Positions 5,061 to 14,813 of a stretch of 64,000 bases of DNA are shown here, one piece after another. The notes beneath the pieces are model-generated. The model did not search any database. It had not been told where the DNA came from and was given only the letters and a program-made list of their open reading frames with translations. Location: positions 1-64,000 of the forward strand of contig JANQWS010000061.1 in NCBI GenBank assembly GCA_030729785.1. Reading direction: 5' to 3'. Each line of letters starts with the position of its first letter. Within the stretch, counting starts at the first letter, position 1. The position numbers and the translations under genes are program-made. This DNA comes from Algoriphagus sp. (GTDB lineage: Bacteria; Bacteroidota; Bacteroidia; Cytophagales; Cyclobacteriaceae).

Positions 5061-5657
5061 TCATTTTGAATGCCGCTGCTTAAGCACCTTCACTACCTCA
5101 TCCAATTCATAACCCTTAGCCTCAAGAAGCACTAAGTAATGGAATAGCAAGTCTGCCGCCTCTCCTAAAAAAAGTCCTTTGTCGTCATCTTTTGCTTCAA
5201 TTACCAATTCTATAGCCTCTTCCCCTACTTTTTGTGCTAATTTATTGATGCCCTTGGCGAAAAGACTAGCCGTGTAGGAGCCTTCCGTTGGATTTTCTTT
5301 TCTATCCTTAATGATAGATCGCAATTGGTCGATAAATCCAGTTTGAGAGGTGTTTGCTTCAGCAAAACAAGTATCCTCGCCCGTATGGCATACCGGTCCG
5401 AGTGGCTTGGCTTTGATGAGAATGGCATCCCCATCACAGTCCTCTTGCATGCTGATGACTTCTAGAAAATTGCCTGAGGTCTCCCCCTTGGTCCACAACC
5501 TATTTTTGCTGCGGGAGAAAAAAGTCACTCTACCTGACGCTTCCGTTTGCGTCAATGCAGCTTCATTCATGTAGCCCAACATCAGTACTTTCCCACTTAG
5601 GGCATCCTGAACCACTGTAGGAATGAGGCCATCCATTTTTTTGAAATTTATGTTCAT
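5061..5657 (-). CDS. hisI: bifunctional phosphoribosyl-AMP cyclohydrolase / phosphoribosyl-ATP pyrophosphatase
   Basis: HisIE fusion of 198 residues catalysing steps 2 and 3 of histidine biosynthesis. The N-terminal cyclohydrolase shows MLGYMNEAALTQT, FFSRSKNRLWTKGETSGN and the metal-binding DCDGDAILIKAKP and VCHTGEDTCF. The C-terminal pyrophosphatase helical domain shows EGSYTASLFAKGINK and KVGEEAIELVIEAKDDD. I chose ATG at 5657 (MNINFKKMDG) over a longer form reading through the upstream repeat. It is the last gene of the trp-his block and is separated from hisF by a repeat element. Confidence 0.95.
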   Translation of the reverse strand: MNINFKKMDGLIPTVVQDALSGKVLMLGYMNEAALTQTEASGRVTFFSRSKNRLWTKGETSGNFLEVISMQEDCDGDAILIKAKPLGPVCHTGEDTCFAEANTSQTGFIDQLRSIIKDRKENPTEGSYTASLFAKGINKLAQKVGEEAIELVIEAKDDDKGLFLGEAADLLFHYLVLLEAKGYELDEVVKVLKQRHSK

Positions 5658-5684
5658 TTTAACTATTTTTTTACTCTTAAAGAA

Positions 5685-5804
5685 GAAATATAATGGAAAT
5701 GCAATGGAAATAAACCGAGCCAAGCTCGGTGAAATAGATTTGATTCGAATACTATTTCGCGAAGCGAAGCGGAGTCTATTTCAATTGTATTTCTATCGTG
5801 TTTC
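5685..5804. repeat. 120-bp imperfect palindromic intergenic element, copy 1
   Basis: Arms 5685-5714 and 5775-5804 are inverted copies of 30 bases with seven mismatches by my alignment. They are built from spaced GAAAT units. The centre carries a perfect hairpin (accgagcc / ggctcggt type, 5714-5730) and the GC-rich block gcgaagcgaagcggagtc. The right end overlaps the hisF stop codon. The right arm plus GC-rich block recurs in opposite orientation at 26067-26118 with about 48 of 52 identical bases. Confidence 0.75.
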
Positions 5805-6558
5805 AATTTCGTACCACTACCCCTTCATCACTTAAATACATTTTCAATTCTGGAATTCCAATTTCCTTGAAGTGGAAAATACTTGCTGCAAGTGCTGCAT
5901 CTGCTTTCCCAGAGGTAAATACTTCCTTAAAATGAACCATAGTTCCCGCTCCACCTGAGGCAATAACTGGGATAGTTAAAGCTCCTGAAATCGCAGCAGT
6001 CAATTCCAATGCAAAACCTGCCTTGGTCCCGTCATGATCCATGGAGGTGAGCAGTATCTCTCCAGCACCCCGATCGGCTAATTCCTTTGCCCAAGCTCTA
6101 GTTTGTAGCGAGGTCGCTTTCCTTCCTCCATGGGTATGTACCCAGTCTATCCCATCCATTTGCCTAGAATCTATGGCCACCACCACACATTGGGAGCCAA
6201 ACTCCCGCGCCAAGGTATCTACCAGTTCCGGTTGGGCCACAGCAGCAGAGTTGATAGAAATCTTATCTGCACCTGCTGCAAGTAAGGAATAGACGTCCTC
6301 TACCGATCCAATACCTCCACCCACGGTAAAAGGTATTCGTACTTCCTTGGCAACCTGTGTGACTAAATCTACTAGCGTTTTACGCTTGTCCACCGTAGCA
6401 GTAATATCCAAAAAGACAAGTTCATCTGCACCCTGTTCGGAATACAACTTGGCCAAAGCCACAGGGTCTCCCGCATCTCGAAGTTCCACAAAATTCACCC
6501 CCTTGACCGTGCGGCCATCTTTGATATCAAGACAAGGGATAATTCGTTTGGTTAGCAT
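5803..6558 (-). CDS. hisF: imidazole glycerol phosphate synthase cyclase subunit HisF
   Basis: The 251-residue TIM barrel of the HisFH complex. It condenses PRFAR with the ammonia supplied by HisH to give imidazole glycerol phosphate and AICAR. The hallmark start [19 protein letters not shown] carries catalytic Asp11, and the second catalytic Asp is in [12 protein letters not shown]. Phosphate-binding loops are [10 protein letters not shown] and [13 protein letters not shown]. Its partner hisH lies two genes upstream, with hisA between them. Confidence 0.97.
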
Positions 6559-6617
6559 GGGTAGGTTAGAAACAAGTAAGTTAAGTAGATGTTGAATGGA
6601 GTGATTTAGTAGTGAAG

Positions 6618-7340
6618 TTAATTTTCTTCGAATTGGGCCAGTGCTTCCAAACTCACCTTTCCCTCGTAGTAAGCCTTCCCCACAATCGTCCCATACACGC
6701 CTATTTCCCGCAATACTTCCAGATCCTTTAGGCAGGACACGCCTCCACTGGCTATAAGTTTTAATTCTGGCAACTCCTGCAAAATTTCCTTGTACAAGTT
6801 AAAAGAAGGGCCTTGAAGCAGTCCGTCCTTTGCCACATCCGTACAAATTACCTCGCGAACGCCCTTTTGGTAATATCCTTTAATAAATGGGATCAATTCC
6901 AGTGTCGTAGTTTCTTCCCATCCCCCAACAGCAATTTTTTTATCCTTGGCATCGGCACCCAGAATAATTCGATCTGCACCATAGGTATCCAACCAAGCAT
7001 CAAACAGACTTGGATTCCGTACCGCGATACTACCTCCTGTCACTTGGTGAGCACCCAAAGAAAAGGCCTTTTCGAGTTCTTCCTGCGCTTGAATACCCCC
7101 TCCAAAATCTACTGTCAAACGAGTTCCTAAACAAATACGCTGCAAAACGTCTCCATTTATGATTTTTTTAGCTTTGGCGCCATCTAAATCCACCAAATGA
7201 AGTCGTGTCAATCCTGCATCCTCAAAGCGCTTTGCCATTTCTAGGGGATCATCGTGGTAATCGGTTTTGCGCTGATAGTCCCCTTGGCTAAGGCGGACAC
7301 ACTTACCTCCAATCAAATCAATAGCCGGAATTACATGCAT
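6618..7340 (-). CDS. hisA: ProFAR isomerase HisA
   Basis: The 240-residue barrel that converts ProFAR to PRFAR. The start [20 protein letters not shown] carries the general base Asp8, and the second catalytic Asp lies in [16 protein letters not shown]. Phosphate sites are VDFGGGIQ and [13 protein letters not shown] separate trpF exists in the same block, so a dual-function PriA-type enzyme is not implied. It follows hisH by 39 bases and precedes hisF by 59 bases. Confidence 0.96.
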
Positions 7341-7379
7341 GGTTTTAGAATTAGGAGCTATTAAAAGCTTTTTTAGTTG

Positions 7380-8000
7380 CTAGTATATTTGAGGTGAAGA
7401 AGAAGGCAGAGCCAAGAAATTTTCCAATAGTTTTTCCCCAAACACACTGCTTTTCTCGGGATGGGCTTGGATAGCCCAGAAATTGTCCCGATGTAAAATA
7501 GCTGTAAATTCCTGAATGTAAGAGGTCGTTGCAAGTGTGTGTTCTCCCAATTCGGCAAAGTAACTATGGACGTAGTACATAAATTTGGAATCAGGAAGAT
7601 CCTTTAGCAAGGGATTCTTCACCAGGTTTTCCAAGGAATTCCAACCTACATGTGGGACTTTTTCCTGCCCACTGGCACTGGGAACAAATCGCTTTACTTT
7701 TACTGGAAAGATCCCTAAGCAGGTAGTATCGTTCTCCTCAGTATGCGTGCATAGCAATTGCAAACCCAAACAGACGCCCAAGAAAGGTTGCTTGATTTCT
7801 CGAATTACTTGATCCAATTTCCGTTCCTTCAAGTAGGACATGGCTGAACTCGCTTCTCCCTGTCCAGGGAAAATTACCCGATCGGCCGACCGTATTTTTT
7901 CAGAATCATCCGTGAGTTCAGCGTCTACCCCTAAGCGCTCTAGCGCATAGCGTACGGATTGAACATTCCCGGCATTGTACTTGATTAATGCTACTTTCAT
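7380..8000 (-). CDS. hisH: imidazole glycerol phosphate synthase glutaminase subunit HisH
   Basis: A 206-residue class I glutamine amidotransferase that feeds ammonia to HisF. Visible features are the start VALIKYNAGNVQSVRYALE, the oxyanion segment VIFPGQGEASSAM, the nucleophilic Cys in FLGVCLGLQLLC, and the His-x-Glu partners in WAIQAHPEKSSVFG. It heads the his half of the block. A 101-base gap separates it from trpA, with no clear terminator or TAnnTTTG box there. Confidence 0.96.
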   Translation of the reverse strand: MKVALIKYNAGNVQSVRYALERLGVDAELTDDSEKIRSADRVIFPGQGEASSAMSYLKERKLDQVIREIKQPFLGVCLGLQLLCTHTEENDTTCLGIFPVKVKRFVPSASGQEKVPHVGWNSLENLVKNPLLKDLPDSKFMYYVHSYFAELGEHTLATTSYIQEFTAILHRDNFWAIQAHPEKSSVFGEKLLENFLALPSSSPQIY

Positions 8001-8101: not shown

Positions 8102-8881
8102 TTAATTTTCAGCTAGCACTCCCCCAAGGAACGCTTGAATATCCCGATTCAAATCTGAGGAATTGGCGATCGCGTTGATAAATGCCGAACCAATAATCGC
8201 CCCTTGGCTGTAGCGCGAGGCAAGTTGAAAAGTAGCAGCATCCGAAATCCCAAATCCAATCAATCGCGGATGCGTCAGATTCATATTCGCTACCCGCTCA
8301 AAGTACTCCTCCTGCTCCTTAGAAATTGCTGACTTGGCCCCTGTGATGGCATGGGAAGAAACCATATAAATAAAGCCACTGGAGTTTTCATCTACTTCAC
8401 GAATTCGCTTTTCGGAGGTTTGAGGAGAAATTAGGAAACTGATAAACAAACCATATTCTTCAAAAAGGGCTTTGTACTCCTCCAAATACTGGCTCATAGG
8501 TAGATCTGGCAGAATAAGTCCATCTACTCCCACTTCTTTGCACTTTTTGCAAAACTCCTCTACCCCAAACTGTATGATTGGATTCAGGTAGCCCATAAGG
8601 ATTACAGGAACATGAATTTTGGCACGGAAGCCTACTAGTTGACTGAAAAGGGTTTTAATGCTCATCCCATTTTCCAAGGCCTGGGTATTGCTCTCTTGGA
8701 TCGTGGGCCCATCGGCAATGGGATCCGAATAAGGTATCCCTAGTTCAATGATATCTGCGCCGGCCGCTTGAATAGCTTCCATCACGGGAAGGGTATCTTC
8801 CAACTTCGGAAACCCTGCCGTCACGTAAATGGAGAGTACCCGCTCTTTTTTGGTTTGAAATAAATAGTCGATTCGATTCAT
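8102..8881 (-). CDS. trpA: tryptophan synthase alpha subunit
   Basis: A 259-residue TIM barrel that cleaves indole-3-glycerol phosphate to indole and G3P. Catalytic Glu is in IIELGIPYSDPIADGPTIQ, with catalytic Asp in the DGLILPDLP region. The loop-6 region is SSHAITGAKSA, and the phosphate loop is LIGFGISDA. It is the last trp gene and would pass indole through the tunnel to TrpB, encoded 55 bases upstream. Confidence 0.97.
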   Translation of the reverse strand: MNRIDYLFQTKKERVLSIYVTAGFPKLEDTLPVMEAIQAAGADIIELGIPYSDPIADGPTIQESNTQALENGMSIKTLFSQLVGFRAKIHVPVILMGYLNPIIQFGVEEFCKKCKEVGVDGLILPDLPMSQYLEEYKALFEEYGLFISFLISPQTSEKRIREVDENSSGFIYMVSSHAITGAKSAISKEQEEYFERVANMNLTHPRLIGFGISDAATFQLASRYSQGAIIGSAFINAIANSSDLNRDIQAFLGGVLAEN

Positions 8882-8936
8882 AAGTTGAAGACAAAGGTGA
8901 AAAGTAATGAATAGCCCTTCTTTAAAGCGCTATCTT

Positions 8937-10133
8937 TCAATAGTTCCCCCATTGAATGTAGGTTTCCAAATCCTTATCTCCCCTTCCTGAAAGGTTGATC
9001 ACGATGAGGTCATTTGGATTGAACGAGATTTGGTTCAGGGCATGGATGGCATGGGCCGTTTCGATGGCAGGAATGATTCCCTCCGTCCGGCTCAATAGGA
9101 TGCCTGCCTTCATTGCATCCTCGTCCTCTACACCGACAAACTCCGCCCGTCCCACGGCATGCAGGTGGGCATGGACTGGACCTATTCCTGGATAATCCAA
9201 TCCTGCAGAGATGGAATGTGGTTCTATCACCTGTCCATCTTCAGTTTGCATCACCAAGGTTTTTGAACCATGCAAAATCCCCGGAGTACCCAATACGGAA
9301 GTAGCTGCAGACTTACCGGAATGAATCCCGTGTCCTGCAGCCTCTACAGCAATCAATCGAACCGCTGCCTCATTGTAATAGTGGTAAAATGCTCCTGCAG
9401 CATTGGATCCTCCACCTACACAGGCAATCACGAGGTCAGGATTTTCTCTACCCTCTTTGGCAAGCAATTGCCATTTGATCTCTTCGGAGATGACAGATTG
9501 AAAACGAGCCACCATCTCTGGATAGGGATGCGGTCCTACCACCGAACCGATGATGTAATGCGTACCCACAGGATCAGCAATCCAGGCACGCATGGCCTCG
9601 TTGGTGGCATCTTTTAACGTCTTTGAGCCCGACACAGCCGGGACTACTTTGGCTCCAAGGATTCGCATACGCTCTACATTGGGACGCTGACGCTTGATAT
9701 CCAACTCCCCCATGTAAATGGTGCAATCCATTCCCATCAACGCGCAGACGGTAGCTGTAGCCACTCCGTGCTGTCCCGCTCCAGTTTCGGCGATGATGCG
9801 CTTTTTACCCAGCTTCTTCGCTAGGATAATCTGCCCTACGGTATTGTTGACCTTGTGCGCACCGGTATGGCAGAGGTCTTCCCGCTTGAGGTAAATCTTA
9901 GCACCAAAACTTGCGGAAAGCCTTTCTGCAAAATAGAGCGGCGTAGGTCTTCCCACAAAATCTTTGAGTAAACTTTGAAATTCTTCTTGATACGTCGGGC
10001 TTGCTACAATAGCTTCCCAGTTTTCTCGAAGCTCCTCTACATTGGGGTACAACATTTCGGGGATGTAGGCACCCCCAAATTTTCCATAAAACCCTTTTTC
10101 GTCAACTTGTATCATCTGCTCACTAGTTTTCAT
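8937..10133 (-). CDS. trpB: tryptophan synthase beta subunit
   Basis: A 398-residue PLP enzyme that joins indole and serine to make tryptophan. The PLP lysine is in [12 protein letters not shown], catalytic Glu in [13 protein letters not shown], and the phosphate-binding glycine loop is [10 protein letters not shown]. The beta-replacement region [16 protein letters not shown] is typical. The start [21 protein letters not shown] gives the usual length; Met7 is an alternative start. It lies between trpF and trpA. Confidence 0.97.
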
Positions 10134-10144
10134 CTTCCACTAAT

Positions 10145-10771
10145 TTACTTCGTTAATTCTTGTTTAAATGCCTGCAAGGCAGTCACATCTTTTTGACCCG
10201 GAGCCAATTCAAAGCCCGAATTGAGATCCACTCCTAGCAACTGCGGGATGCGGCCTGCTAAGTCTCGGATGGCTAGTGCATGGGAAGCAGTCAAGCCTCC
10301 GCTGAGCATAAATCCCTTATCGAAGGGATAGTCCTCCAAGAGCCTCCAGTCGAATTGCTTTCCTGATCCCCCTTTACTTGCCGAAGCGGTATCAAACAGG
10401 AAGCGATCTACATGAGGAACAAAAGCTTCCATGAACTTCCAATCTAAATTTTCCGCTACGGAAATAACTTTCCAAATCTGAACCTCCGTAGCTGCTTTGA
10501 GATTTTTTACCACTTCCAAAGACTCTCCTCCATGTAATTGCAAAGCAGACAGCCCAAATGTTGAAATTCTTTGTAGCATCATGGATTGCTGCTCCCCTAC
10601 TACTACCCCAACTTTCTTTAAAGGAATGGTTCTTAACCAGTTGGATTCTTCCTCCCGCACAAAACGGGGCGACTTGGGATAAAAGATTAACCCCATCCAA
10701 TCTGGAACAACTTCTACAGCCAATTGTTGACAATTGGCTTGCTCTCGCATCCCACAAACTTTAATTTCCAT
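10145..10771 (-). CDS. trpF: phosphoribosylanthranilate isomerase
   Basis: A 208-residue TIM barrel for step 3 of tryptophan synthesis, an Amadori rearrangement. Catalytic Cys is in the opening MEIKVCGMRE, and catalytic Asp in DRFLFDTASASKGGSG. LSGGLTASHA and LLGVDLNSGFE are the phosphate-binding strands. I chose ATG at 10771; an in-frame GTG at 10786 just after the trpC stop would add MDKQR. It is tightly packed with trpC, 19 bases away. Confidence 0.94.
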   Translation of the reverse strand: MEIKVCGMREQANCQQLAVEVVPDWMGLIFYPKSPRFVREEESNWLRTIPLKKVGVVVGEQQSMMLQRISTFGLSALQLHGGESLEVVKNLKAATEVQIWKVISVAENLDWKFMEAFVPHVDRFLFDTASASKGGSGKQFDWRLLEDYPFDKGFMLSGGLTASHALAIRDLAGRIPQLLGVDLNSGFELAPGQKDVTALQAFKQELTK

Positions 10772-10790
10772 ACGCTGCTTATCCACTAGT

Positions 10791-11591
10791 TTACTCTCCC
10801 ATTAAGCGTCTATACTCTTGAATAAAGTCCATAGCTGCCTGCTCTGGACTGGAGGTCTTCATGAAGTTTTCCCCGATTAAAAAGCCATCGAAGCCTGCCT
10901 TTCGGAAGGCTACCAGAGTAGCTGGATCCGAAATTCCACTTTCTGAAATTTTGACCACTTGGTTAGGAATACGATCCACTAGCTCCAGGGAAGTATCCAA
11001 AGAGACCTCAAAATTCTTCAGATTTCGGTTGTTGACACCGACCACATCCAGGGGCTCACAAAACGACTGCTCCAATTCCTCCAAGTTATGCACTTCCAAG
11101 AGCACCTCTAATTCCAAACTTTGAGCAAAGCTGGCCAAGGAGTTGACTTTTGAAGGGGATAAAGCAGCTGCAATCAATAATATACAATCGGCACCCATGG
11201 CTTTGGCTTCCAAGATCTGGTACTCATCCACCACAAAGTCTTTTCTCAAGATTGGGATAGCCACTTGCAGTCTGGCTACCTCAAGATCTGCTGTAGCTCC
11301 TCCGAAGTACTCCTGGTCGGTTAACACAGAAAGGGCTGAGGCACCAGCCAACTCGTATCCCTTACTCACTTTCTCTACCGAGGAGGTGCCATTGATCAAT
11401 CCTTTGGAAGGAGATTTTCGTTTAAATTCGGTGATGATGCCAGACTTACTACCATCTAGTAGAAATGACTTTAAGGAAAGAGTGCTTCTGGTAAAAGCGC
11501 TACTTTTTTCTAGAAGCGATACAGGGCATTGCTGCTTCCGTACTTGCACTTCCAGGTATTTATCGGCAATGATTTTTTCTAGCGTATTCAT
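10791..11591 (-). CDS. trpC: indole-3-glycerol phosphate synthase
   Basis: A 266-residue TIM barrel for step 4. Signature segments are the active-site Lys in GIITEFKRKSPSKG, LSVLTDQEYFGG, ILRKDFVVDEYQI, LLEVHNLEEL, VVGVNNRNLKNF and ISESGISDPATL. It is monofunctional because trpF is a separate gene. The ATG at 11591 is followed by the usual N-terminal helix MNTLEKIIADKYLEV. Confidence 0.97.
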   Translation of the reverse strand: MNTLEKIIADKYLEVQVRKQQCPVSLLEKSSAFTRSTLSLKSFLLDGSKSGIITEFKRKSPSKGLINGTSSVEKVSKGYELAGASALSVLTDQEYFGGATADLEVARLQVAIPILRKDFVVDEYQILEAKAMGADCILLIAAALSPSKVNSLASFAQSLELEVLLEVHNLEELEQSFCEPLDVVGVNNRNLKNFEVSLDTSLELVDRIPNQVVKISESGISDPATLVAFRKAGFDGFLIGENFMKTSSPEQAAMDFIQEYRRLMGE

Positions 11592-11601
11592 CTGAAGCAG
11601 C

Positions 11602-12612
11602 TTAGTTAAAAGATACGGAGGTTTGGGGCTGGATCAATCCCGTAAAAACACGGAGCGCTTTTCCACTCATCAAAGTTTCTTCGGCAATAGCTATGGCCTC
11701 TGCAAAGTCAAGGCCTTCCCGTGCGGTCACTAGTGCAGCAGCAGCATTGGCGATCACCACTTGATTTTGCGCAGCGCTACCAGCTCCTCGAAGTACCTGC
11801 TCAAAGATACGTGCAGAAGCTGCAATTGTGGCCCCCCCGAGGATACTCTCTGGTGAAAGTTGCTCCAATCCTAACCCTTGAGGATGGTAAAGTTTCTCAC
11901 CCCCATTGGTAATCATTTTGAAGGGTCCCGTCAGGGAAATTTCATCGTAGCCATCCAAGGCATGCAAGATTGCAAATCGGCCCTCCGTCTCTTGGTAGAG
12001 GTAACCATACAATCGAGCCAGTTCCAAACTGAATACACCTACCAATTGCTTGCGGGGAAAACTTGGGTTGACCATGGGTCCGAGCATGTTGAAAAAGGTC
12101 TTTACTCCGAGTTCCTTTCGGATGGGAGCCACGCTTTTCATGGCAGGGTGAAATAGCGGGGCATGCAGAAAGCAGAGACCTACCTGGTCCAAACTGCGTC
12201 GAAGCTGGTCCGAATCCGAGCTAAACTCGTATCCAAAATGGGCAAGCAAGTTGGAAGATCCACAAATGGAAGAGACGCCTGTATTGCCGTGCTTGGCCAC
12301 CGCTTGCCCGGCACCGGCTACAATAAAGGAGGAAAGCGTGGAAATATTAAAGGTATCCTTACCATCGCCTCCCGTGCCACAGAGGTCCATGGCATCGTAT
12401 TCTGATAGGTCGATGGGGACACAGAGCTCGAGCATGGCTTCGCGGAAACCCCGCAGCTCCTCCACAGTAATGCTCCGCATCAGGAATACGGTCATAAAGG
12501 CGGCTACTTGACTACTCGGATAGGATCCTGTGGCTAAATTTTTCAAGACCTCTTTTGCCTGCAGCTGAGAGAGGGTTTTGTGTGCAATAAGGTGATTTAA
12601 TATGTCTTTCAT
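11602..12612 (-). CDS. trpD: anthranilate phosphoribosyltransferase
   Basis: A 336-residue enzyme that transfers phosphoribose from PRPP to anthranilate. Signatures are the PRPP-binding DLCGTGGDGKDTFNIST, AKHGNTGVSSICGSSNLL and the later HALDGYDEISLTGP. I chose ATG at 12612 (MKDILNHLIAHKTLS). An in-frame start at 12645 would overlap the trpG stop and add 11 residues. TrpD is separate from TrpG here, unlike enteric fusions. Confidence 0.95.
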   Translation of the reverse strand: MKDILNHLIAHKTLSQLQAKEVLKNLATGSYPSSQVAAFMTVFLMRSITVEELRGFREAMLELCVPIDLSEYDAMDLCGTGGDGKDTFNISTLSSFIVAGAGQAVAKHGNTGVSSICGSSNLLAHFGYEFSSDSDQLRRSLDQVGLCFLHAPLFHPAMKSVAPIRKELGVKTFFNMLGPMVNPSFPRKQLVGVFSLELARLYGYLYQETEGRFAILHALDGYDEISLTGPFKMITNGGEKLYHPQGLGLEQLSPESILGGATIAASARIFEQVLRGAGSAAQNQVVIANAAAALVTAREGLDFAEAIAIAEETLMSGKALRVFTGLIQPQTSVSFN

Positions 12613-12629
12613 CGGTGGATTGAGATCAT

Positions 12630-13196
12630 TTAGGATTGAAGCCAATTTTGGATCAACTGGGATCCGTGTTCGGTAAGAATACTTTCTGGGTGAAACTGTA
12701 GTCCTCGTAGGTCATACTGCTTGTGCCGAATGGCCATAATCTGTTGGTCCGACGTGCGTCCAATCACCTCCAGGTCTACAGGCAGGTATGCTTCGTCTAC
12801 TACCCAGGAATGGTACCTCCCTACTGCAAACTGGCTAGGTAGTCCAGCAAATAGTCGATCAGGCACTGCCGTGAAGGTAGCTGCTACCCCATGCTGGACT
12901 TCAGCTAAGTTATGCAATTTGCCGCCGAAAGCCTCTGCGATGGCCTGGTGTCCCAAACAAATGCCTAGAATAGATTTGGTCGCCCTATACCGTTGCAATA
13001 GCGCAGGCATGAGCCCTGCTTCTTCCGGAATACCTGGTCCTGGAGAAAGGAGAATTTTATCGAAGAGCTCCACCTCATCTAAGGCAAAGGCATCATTTCG
13101 ACGAATGTCCAATTGCTGTCCATACCCCAATTGACGAATCAGGTAGACCAAATTGTAGGTAAAAGAATCGTAATTGTCTATGACTAAAATTTTCAT
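12630..13196 (-). CDS. trpG: anthranilate synthase glutaminase component
   Basis: A 188-residue class I amidotransferase that supplies ammonia to TrpE. Visible are the start ILVIDNYDSFTYNLVY, LLSPGPGIPEEAG, nucleophile Cys in ILGICLGHQAIAEAFGG and His/Glu in LQFHPESILTEHG. The PabA-like family cannot be separated by sequence alone, and the protein might also serve p-aminobenzoate synthesis. It lies directly after trpE, 11 bases away. Confidence 0.96.
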   Translation of the reverse strand: MKILVIDNYDSFTYNLVYLIRQLGYGQQLDIRRNDAFALDEVELFDKILLSPGPGIPEEAGLMPALLQRYRATKSILGICLGHQAIAEAFGGKLHNLAEVQHGVAATFTAVPDRLFAGLPSQFAVGRYHSWVVDEAYLPVDLEVIGRTSDQQIMAIRHKQYDLRGLQFHPESILTEHGSQLIQNWLQS

Positions 13197-13207
13197 GAAT
13201 GCATCGC

Positions 13208-14617
13208 TTAAATCTGTTCTGCAGTTTTCAATGCCACTCGCAAGGCTTCCAGTTTGTTGGCCACCTCTTGTAATTCGGAGCGGATGTCACTTTTGGCAAC
13301 TACGCCAGCACCGGCTTGAAACCGAAGTTGGTTGTTTTCGGACACAAAGGAGCGAATCACAATGGCATGGTTAAAGTCCCCATTGAACCCCAAGTAGCCG
13401 ATAGCACCTCCATAAAATTGACGATTGACCGATTCCAATTCATCAATCAATTCCATGGCTCGGTATTTTGGTGCGCCGGAAAGGGTTCCAGCAGGAAAGG
13501 TGTCGGCAACTAATTGAAGTGGATTTGCTCCTTCGGGAAGCTGACCTGTTACTTTAGATACCAAATGGATCACATGGGAGTAGTATTGCACTTCTTTGAA
13601 GACCTCTACTTCCACCCGATCGGAAGAACGAGAAAGGTCATTCCGTGCCAGGTCTACCAGCATGACATGCTCTGCATTTTCCTTGGGATCGTCGTAGAGC
13701 TTGCGTGCAAGGGCAGCATCCTCCACATCGTTGCCGGTGCGGCGGAAGGTGCCTGCAATTGGGTAGAGGGTTGCTTTTCTATTTTTTACCACAATTTGAG
13801 CTTCTGGGGAGCTTCCAAAGATCTTGAAGGATCCATAATCAAAATAGAATAGGTAGGGAGAGGGATTGACCGAGCGAAGGGCGCGGTACACGTTAAACTC
13901 ATCCCCTTTGAAAGCAGTGGTAAATCGGCGAGAAAGGACCAACTGAAACACATCTCCACGCTGGCAATGCTTCTGGGCTTGAGCGAGCAATCCCAAGAAC
14001 TCGTCATCACTGTAATTGGAAAACTCTTCACCTTCTTTCTTGAATGAGTAGGCTGGAATATTCTTATTATTCAGTAATGTTTCGATTTCATCCAAGTGAG
14101 AGACACGCTCAGGTCCCTCAGGCAAATGTTCAAAAAGGTGTAGCTCGTTTTTGTAATGATCCACCACGATGATGTTTTGGTACATGGCATAATGCATCAT
14201 GGGTACCTCATTCGAAGGAGTACCTTGAAGCTGAATGTCCTCAAACCAGCCTACGGTATCGTATTGAGTGTAGCCAAAAAGGCCGTTTGTACTGAATTTG
14301 AAAGAGTCTGGGGTCGATTGAAAGGAATTTCCAAAGCGCCGCAAGCAATCCATTAGCGGTTGTTCTGGGCTTACCCGATAGGAGTTCTCCTCCCCAGTGG
14401 GCATTTTTTCTAAAACCGTACCTGCGGTAAAGGAAAATGAAGCTAGTGGGTTGAAACAGATATAGGAATAGCTATTGTCCTGCCCTCGATAATCCGAGGA
14501 CTCCAGTAAAATGGGATTCGCAAAGCGATCGCGCACTTGCAGGTAAATACTGACTGGCGTGATGGTATCGGCCAATCGCTTGCGGTACTGTGTGTGTAGG
14601 AGAATGGTCTGTGACAT
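13208..14617 (-). CDS. trpE: anthranilate synthase component I
   Basis: A 469-residue chorismate-utilising enzyme that commits chorismate to tryptophan. The N-terminal LLESSD segment is the conserved element that binds Trp for feedback inhibition. The catalytic domain shows QLVLSRRF, PSPYLFYFDYG, IAGTFRRTGND, NAEHVMLVDLARNDLSR, FPAGTLSGAPKYRAMELI and FQAGAGVVAKSD. It is the first structural gene of the operon. Its ATG follows the leader terminator by 21 bases, so expression should depend on readthrough. Confidence 0.97.
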   Translation of the reverse strand: MSQTILLHTQYRKRLADTITPVSIYLQVRDRFANPILLESSDYRGQDNSYSYICFNPLASFSFTAGTVLEKMPTGEENSYRVSPEQPLMDCLRRFGNSFQSTPDSFKFSTNGLFGYTQYDTVGWFEDIQLQGTPSNEVPMMHYAMYQNIIVVDHYKNELHLFEHLPEGPERVSHLDEIETLLNNKNIPAYSFKKEGEEFSNYSDDEFLGLLAQAQKHCQRGDVFQLVLSRRFTTAFKGDEFNVYRALRSVNPSPYLFYFDYGSFKIFGSSPEAQIVVKNRKATLYPIAGTFRRTGNDVEDAALARKLYDDPKENAEHVMLVDLARNDLSRSSDRVEVEVFKEVQYYSHVIHLVSKVTGQLPEGANPLQLVADTFPAGTLSGAPKYRAMELIDELESVNRQFYGGAIGYLGFNGDFNHAIVIRSFVSENNQLRFQAGAGVVAKSDIRSELQEVANKLEALRVALKTAEQI

Positions 14618-14638: not shown

Positions 14639-14675
14639 AAAAAAAGGCTTACCGGGGAAAACCAGTAAGCCTTTT
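14639..14675 (-). terminator. trp leader intrinsic terminator (attenuator)
   Basis: On the minus strand GGCUUACUGG pairs with CCGGUAAGCC (ten pairs including one U-G wobble) over a six-base loop. Seven U residues follow directly. It lies between the leader peptide stop and trpE, the classic position of a trp attenuator. Confidence 0.9.
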
Positions 14676-14723
14676 GAGGTATGTATTGCGCAAAATCTAG
14701 GCAACGGCTTTCTGAGCTTTCCC
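14655..14723 (-). promoter_or_regulatory. trp antiterminator pairing
   Basis: Leader segment 2 (GGGAAAGCUCAGAAAGCC, plus 14706-14723) can pair antiparallel with segment 3 (GGCUUACUGGUUUUCCC, plus 14655-14671). Nine pairs form at one end and five at the other around a 4x3 internal loop. Segment 3 contains the whole 5' arm of the terminator, so the two structures exclude each other. Segment 2 is otherwise held by segment 1 as CUUUCC-ucg-GGAAAG. A ribosome stalled at the Trp codons would cover segment 1 and free segment 2. The pairing was worked out by hand; no folding energy was computed. Confidence 0.8.
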
Positions 14724-14774
14724 GAGGAAAGTTTTGGAATGCCACCACCAGTAGTTGTTTGCGTTTGTTTTCAT
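14697..14774 (-). CDS. trpL: trp operon leader peptide with three tandem Trp codons
   Basis: A 25-codon open frame, ATG at 14774 to TAG at 14697. It begins MKTNANNY, continues with three consecutive TGG codons (residues 9-11) and HSKTF, and ends KAQKAVA. Three Trp in 25 residues, placed just before mutually exclusive RNA hairpins and trpE, is the hallmark of ribosome-sensing attenuation. The stop codon falls so that a terminating ribosome covers segment 2, which favours the terminator when Trp is plentiful. The start lies only about 10 bases after the predicted -7 box, so the mRNA may be nearly leaderless. Confidence 0.88.
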   Translation of the reverse strand: MKTNANNYWWWHSKTFLGKAQKAVA

Positions 14775-14784
14775 TAGCTTGCTA

Positions 14785-14813
14785 CAAATTTAGAAAGGCT
14801 TTGGAAAAAGCAA
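14785..14813 (-). promoter_or_regulatory. predicted promoter of the trp-his operon
   Basis: The minus-strand -7 box TAAATTTG (plus 14785-14792) matches TAnnTTTG. A TTG (plus 14811-14813) lies 18 bases upstream, close to the usual 19-21 spacing for the -33 element. It is correctly placed to start transcription just before trpL. Confidence 0.65.

Follow-up and report, generated by a model that had tools for sequence, protein, structure and literature searches.

In the trpL leader of E. coli, the Trp codons lie inside segment 1 of an RNA that can form 1:2, 2:3 and 3:4 pairings and carries a U-tract, and the terminated RNA is ~140 nt long. The known experimental cases of such leader-peptide attenuation come mainly from proteobacteria and actinobacteria; Bacteroidetes may be covered in two reviews, reportedly by Merino et al. 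(2008) and Lopatovskaya et al. (2010). For this phylum, the sections available of Weinberg et al. (2010, PMC2864571) predict Bacteroid-trp (RF01692) as a leader RNA of Bacteroidetes trp genes. The accessible text of a 2019 paper (PMC6414381) describes this in silico element as structured like the trp leader of E. coli and as conserved upstream of the trp operon in Flavobacterium psychrophilum, and that of a 2021 transcriptome study (PMC9723704) speaks of ‘strong clues’ that leader peptides attenuate amino-acid operons of the same species; the words trp and tryptophan are absent from the latter's main text as available. In Streptomyces lividans, TrpL1 likewise places a WWW leader and a U-rich terminator before trpE and is transcribed leaderless, but it comes from another phylum and its trpE is monocistronic (PMC8079986, available part). 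A direct test of a trp attenuator in Bacteroidota was not found in the literature searched, most subscription journals lying outside it. To this extent we agree with an initial sequence-only reading of the locus described here, which knew of no experimental case in the phylum; the novelty for the phylum that it implied is not supported, given the prediction of 2010 and the F. psychrophilum papers of 2019 and 2021.

Here we describe the region upstream of trpE in an Algoriphagus genome, which, judged from its sequence and its relatives, is very probably a classical ribosome-mediated transcription attenuator sensing charged tRNA-Trp. Its leader, terminator, 2:3 pairing and geometry are supported by comparative sequence evidence; the start site, translation of the leader, termination and the dependence of termination on Trp are what we infer. 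As in E. coli trpL, Trp codons lie in segment 1 and three pairings, a U-tract and a terminated RNA of ~140 nt are predicted; in contrast to E. coli, the leader has three Trp codons rather than two, and its 5′ UTR is apparently 6 nt.

Organization of the locus

The window, that is, the whole 64,000-nt stretch of DNA analysed, belongs to a draft genome of 2.57 Mb; in a comparison of TrpE, two MAGs that carry the label Algoriphagus are its closest named relatives. Its minus strand carries trpE (13208-14617, ATG at 14617) as the first structural gene, followed by trpG, trpD, trpC, trpF, trpB and trpA (8102-13196; ORFs named from their sequences and gene order) and, 3′ of trpA, by hisH, hisA, hisF and hisIE (5061-8000; named from the ORFs), which are probably co-transcribed. 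The trp-his gene order is matched in many relatives, as found by tblastn with the window ORFs. The arrangement of hisHAF-IE directly after trpA has been gained or lost across the phylum, the TrpE tree requiring at least 15 such changes; trp genes interrupting his operons are described for Thermoflavifilum thermophilum and Filimonas lacunae in the sections available of PMC8305728.

The sequence-only reading had noted a promoter-like box ahead of the leader. The candidate promoter (14785-14813, minus strand) comprises a TTG (14813-14811), an 18-nt spacer and the −7 box TAAATTTG (14792-14785), which matches the Bacteroidota sigma-A −7 box TAnnTTTG; in F. psychrophilum, the sigma-A box has this sequence and lies at −12 to −5 (PMC9723704, available text). 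Transcription would thus start at ~14780, ~6 nt 5′ of the leader AUG. A strict TAnnTTTG within 60 nt 5′ of the leader ATG occurs in 134 of 173 distinct upstream regions, compared with 428 of 8650 mononucleotide shuffles.

All parts of the proposed attenuator (leader, antiterminator, terminator and seven U) were found at the positions first assigned to them, again on the minus strand. The leader peptide ORF, MKTNANNYWWWHSKTFLGKAQKAVA, has the 25 codons claimed and a TAG stop (14774-14697), with WW or WWW leaders in relatives, and its codons 9-11 are TGG (Trp, 14750-14742), the proposed stall site and 5′ part of segment 1. The pairing claimed between segments 1 and 2 is present as the local hairpin CUUUCC-UCG-GGAAAG (14717-14731; arms 14731-14726 and 14722-14717), seen in the sequence and in the alignment. 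Segment 2, GGGAAAGCUCAGAAAGCC (14706-14723), is the 5′ strand of the antiterminator; its end is overlapped by GCCGUUGCC (14700-14708), which in the fold is the 3′ partner of the Trp codons in a long 1:2 stem. Segment 3 (14656-14675) consists of the 5′ arm and loop of the terminator and doubles as the antiterminator 3′ strand, both strands being assigned from the fold, a partner-swap comparison and the alignment. The intrinsic terminator (14639-14675), assigned from fold and alignment, is a 14-pair hairpin (14675-14642) with seven U (14645-14639).

The locus was folded thermodynamically, a check proposed earlier. The whole leader beats 200 of 200 shuffles (z −3.77), and the 2:3 antiterminator (14723-14653) folds at −25.1 kcal/mol (z −3.7) with 8+3+5 = 16 pairs, one bulge and a 1x1 loop; the 2:3 pairing is therefore stronger than was claimed, while the 9 plus 5 pairs around a 4x3 loop originally drawn were not recovered. 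The terminator (−20.5 kcal/mol, z −6.3) has the ten pairs described beforehand, which are G+C-rich, and is extended by four A-U pairs. Over 14723-14639 as a whole, the terminator form is the minimum (−25.9 kcal/mol). Antiterminator and terminator are near-equal in energy, so that, just as the classical model holds, the outcome would depend on kinetics and on which segments are synthesized first. With the terminator 3′ arm left out (14774-14656), the 1:2 form is obtained at −27.7 kcal/mol, which is at chance level (z −1.26, 23 of 200 shuffles at least matching it); besides CUUUCC/GGAAAG it contains a second stem, in which, as in E. coli, the Trp codons themselves (GGUGGUGGC) are paired, here with GCCGUUGCC.

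Conservation of leader and terminator

We assembled 201 trpE-upstream regions, namely that of the window, 80 loci of named relatives and 120 further loci. Of these 120, 71 belong to the family (65 genera, four represented more than once), 4 to the order and 45 to other parts of the class or phylum, where some loci share a genus. The 80- and 120-locus sets overlap, and 167 distinct combinations of segment 2 and segment 3 remain. With a leader defined as an ORF of 8-50 residues containing WW or WWW, 85-380 nt 5′ of trpE, a leader followed by a hairpin and U-tract was found in 191 of the 201 regions. A hairpin with U-tract under −12 kcal/mol accompanies 190 of these 191 leaders, as against 8 of 382 shuffles. 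The hairpin of one of the 191 (L180) is poor and distant from the leader.

The run of Trp codons is also retained. WWW is present in 171 of the 191 leaders, in none of 3820 dinucleotide shuffles and in 2 of 2400 random 300-nt windows downstream at the same loci (mostly coding), the corresponding figures for WW being 188 of 191, 28 of 3820 and 25 of 2400. In an alignment of 82 core Cyclobacteriaceae leaders, the Trp codon columns are invariant or at least 90% identical. The TGG run that the sequence-only reading expected to be shared among relatives is thus conserved, as is pairing.

Ten regions fell outside the WW filter. Six of them (L120, L129, L136, L137, L173 and L174) have a small ORF with Trp residues spaced by one residue (WHW, WYW, WLW), one (L195) has trpB directly upstream of trpE, and in three (L121, L181 and L199) no Trp leader ORF was seen upstream of trpE. 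Among the 45 further loci from elsewhere in the phylum, a WW ORF lies within 600 nt in 22 by a loose criterion (a few look spurious; L250 and L254 are one genome). None of the nine loci of family f17 (L260, L261, L264, L266, L268, L270, L272, L275, L276) has a Trp leader within 600 nt of trpE, and trpB was not found upstream of trpE in these either. Where trpE is without a WW leader, trpB was not found within the ~1.5 kb available upstream at 18 of 19 loci; the remaining locus leaves no room for a leader.

Comparative support for the pairings

The alignment of 82 leaders was evaluated for compensatory changes, as had been suggested, with 500 shuffles and slides by 1-3 columns as controls. The signal is clear for the terminator, where 93.6% of cells are paired, 7 of 14 pairs show two-sided changes and covariation exceeds 500 of 500 shuffles on all five measures. 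For the antiterminator, 83.5% of cells are paired, compared with no more than 68.9% for versions shifted by 1-3 columns, and the covariation score is above that of all shuffles and slides. Its five pairs with two-sided changes are reached by 67 of 500 shuffles and by two slid versions, its number of pair types is reached by 41 of 500 shuffles, and three of six slid versions exceed its two-sided cells. The antiterminator register shifts from clade to clade, and within this Cyclobacteriaceae alignment its signal is less clear than that of the terminator.

Alignment-free comparison of segment 2 with segment 3 of the same leader gave a second view of the 2:3 pairing. A first definition, in which segment 3 was truncated to include just 4 nt of the terminator loop and the search started 9 nt beyond the Trp run, gave a weak result (50 of 165 at or below 5%). 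Under a second, chosen after that outcome and including the loop in full and everything from the Trp run onwards, the antiterminator lies within the best 5% of segment-2 shuffles in 141 of 167 distinct leaders and misses in 26. By group, these successes amount to 78 of 79 in core Cyclobacteriaceae, 35 of 44 in other family members and 28 of 44 outside the family; segment 2 starts at a median of 17 nt after the last Trp codon. When partners were swapped among 111 leaders (the leader-bearing loci of the 120-locus set and the window), using the second definition too, own partners averaged −16.26 kcal/mol versus −10.67 kcal/mol for swapped ones. None of 5000 permutations reached the observed mean, and the same held within each of three subsets.

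The 1:2 pairing is seen in the fold and in most relatives, but its covariation is modest or absent and the fold of 14774-14656 is at shuffle level. In the local hairpin, 85.8% of cells are paired and five of six pairs show two-sided changes, a number matched by 112 of 500 shuffles, with slide −1 giving more two-sided cells. The stem of the Trp codons with GCC-UUGCC has 92.6% of cells paired (slide +3 still 86.4%) and showed no covariation beyond shuffles in the 82-leader alignment (58 to 140 of 500). UUGCC is retained in the Cyclobacterium leaders L061, L062 and L064-L066, where the ORF ends earlier, and its conservation there is therefore not a coding effect.

Proposed mechanism and alternatives

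In the untranslated leader, pairing of Trp codons 9-11 with GCCGUUGCC and of CUUUCC with GGAAAG would sequester segment 2, leaving segment 3 to the terminator. At low Trp, a ribosome would stall on the Trp codons and cover segment 1; segment 2, now free, would pair with segment 3 and the loop before segment 4 is synthesized, and the stall would thereby open trpEGDCFBA and probably hisHAF-IE. When Trp is plentiful, a ribosome at the stop codon would cover much of segment 2, so that segments 3 and 4 would pair and transcription would end in the U-tract after ~140 nt. If a ribosome is assumed to cover −17 to +15 nt relative to its A site, segment 2 of the window is covered by 0% at the Trp codons and by 56% at the stop. 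Across the 167 leaders, segment 2 is wholly free in 166 with the ribosome at the first Trp codon and in 155 with the ribosome at the last, whereas at the stop codon at least half of it is covered in 151 and none in 6. The correct switch geometry claimed at the outset is borne out by these counts, and the mechanism itself, ribosome-mediated attenuation at Trp codons, has strong comparative support.

The same leader might in addition sense His, the His codon after WWW also opening the trp-his operon under His starvation. The window operon does carry hisHAF-IE, Litoribacter leaders read WWHHH and WWWHH, and, among the 92 of 110 leaders for which trpA could be seen, the residue after the Trp run is His in 23 of 28 with his genes downstream versus 28 of 64 without (Fisher p 5e-4). 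Outside the family, his genes follow 5 of the 10 leaders that have this His and none of the 24 that lack it (p 9e-4); within it, however, they follow 18 of 41 and 5 of 17, respectively (p 0.23), and nine independent pairs on a FastTree TrpE tree gave on average 3.4 in the same direction, 1.0 in the opposite one and 4.5 without difference (median p 0.6). Moreover, hisG has a His-rich leader ORF of its own, and the His codon CAU may be retained for the RNA stem. Dual Trp/His control, attractive in the raw counts, is unsupported after phylogenetic correction and is in our judgement unlikely.

A terminated leader would also yield a small RNA and a peptide, and a role in trans is reported for peTrpL of Sinorhizobium meliloti (PMC7298713, sections available). 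That the leader RNA or peptide acts mainly in this manner here is very improbable: apart from its Trp run, the peptide differs between leaders in length and at the C-terminus, whereas the 2:3 pairing is kept. An intrinsic terminator with an alternative structure would suit another Trp-dependent RNA device as well, such as a T-box or a TRAP site with the small ORF being incidental, yet no Rfam family reaches its gathering score in the window, T-box models give nothing over the leader at E up to 5, and the WWW run has a fixed geometry in most leaders; we give this reading next to no credence.

Relation to the Bacteroid-trp family

RF01692 aligns to positions 14794-14664 over its full length (model positions 1-131 of 131) with 29.1 bits and an E of 0.15, which misses the curated cut-off of 49 bits. 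This is the highest bit score of the ten matches listed here; two unrelated families have a slightly lower E and are far below their own cut-offs. In the window's genome, this locus is the only RF01692 match among those listed at E up to 1. Across 98 family genomes none passes the cut-off, 33 having a weaker match and 65 none at E up to 1 under strict filters. A model built from the 82 leaders matches at E up to 0.01 in 39 of 41 family genomes, several of which, including the window's, are in the training set, and some of the matches do not lie before trpE. The locus resembles Bacteroid-trp in being a Bacteroidetes trp leader RNA with a full-length alignment and differs in falling below the curated cut-off. 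By sequence, it is a divergent member of an already predicted RNA family and a regulator ordinary in kind; the subfamily overlooked by the Rfam model is possibly new.

Additional sub-threshold RF01692 places were found in 14 regions, 8 of which carry a leader ORF with WWW within their middle 800 nt. One region (L291) has a WW ORF only, and another (L292) duplicates L119, a trpE leader included above. Five (L279, L280, L281, L285 and L286) have no WW or WWW ORF in the middle 800 nt, L286 having a spaced leader, NWRWL. No trpE was found at L279, L280, L281, L285 and L291, which look like chance matches.

Leader AUGs near the RNA 5′ end

In the 111 leaders of the 120-locus set and the window, a strict TAnnTTTG lies within 60 nt of the leader AUG in 74, and in 44 of these 74 it ends at most 13 nt before the AUG. 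With the box at −12 to −5, a spacing of 13 nt corresponds to a 5′ UTR of at most 9 nt. Among ordinary ORFs with free upstream DNA at the same loci, the box occurs in 50 of 653 and that close in 8, a difference with p 1e-6 that is not corrected for phylogeny. Where there were several in-frame ATGs the last one was used, so that some box-AUG distances are longer than they may be. Thus 44 of 111 leaders would apparently have only 0-9 nt between the RNA 5′ end and the AUG, which is possibly new. For comparison, 5′ UTRs under 10 nt make up ~3.7% in B. thetaiotaomicron (PMC7366714) and leaderless mRNAs 5.5% in F. psychrophilum (PMC9723704, available text), and leaderless leader peptides are known in Streptomyces (PMC8079986, available part). 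Ribosomes of Bacteroidia, unlike those of E. coli, do not recognise Shine-Dalgarno sequences, according to the available sections of PMC9976891.

We also observed a His-rich leader ORF before hisG in the window's genome (L203:1168-1251). By a loose criterion and without a shuffle comparison, 30 of 31 hisG loci (L203 and L204-L233) have, within 500 nt, a short ORF that starts with ATG and contains HH or His residues close together. In 18 of the 31 there is a strict box within 40 nt, which in 16 of those ends at most 10 nt before the ATG. The trp model R1 also matches upstream of hisG in genomes G015, G017, G019 and G036.

Tandem attenuators

Two complete leader and terminator units stand in series before trpE at 6 of 254 loci (L126, L150, L151, L282, L289 and L290; 800 nt searched), belonging to six genera of the family; L282, L289 and L290 come from regions fetched for their RF01692 match, and the share is therefore not unbiased. 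Within the 120-locus set, the count is 3 of 120. A seventh candidate, in Fulvivirga kasyanovii (L082), was left out of these counts; its second leader starts with GTG. At five of the six loci, a strict box is present within 50 nt of the first leader, and at none is there one that near the second. Antiterminators are in the best 5% of shuffles for five of six second units (the sixth at 5.4%) and three of six first units. The Salmonella mgtCBR tandem attenuators also have two short leader ORFs in one leader (PMC3641672, available sections), but control other genes, whereas in the six relatives each of the two leaders contains Trp codons and comes with a separate terminator. Earlier tandem Trp leaders were not found among the papers listed for this topic, as judged by titles and the beginnings of abstracts, and serial Trp attenuators in this family are possibly new.

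Implications

A textbook switch, widespread in the phylum, appears to precede trpE in nearly all of the 201 densely sampled regions and in 22 of 45 from other parts of the phylum, among them a large subfamily not recognized by the Rfam model. This raises the question of how ribosomes that make no use of Shine-Dalgarno pairing could load a leader peptide quickly enough for attenuation to work. We put at about even the chance that Bacteroidota run amino-acid attenuators with the AUG near the RNA 5′ end, where immediate ribosome loading would keep pace with RNA polymerase, and that the serial Trp attenuators which some lineages place behind one promoter act as a steeper, AND-type gate. The tandem pairs offer natural variants of gain and threshold.
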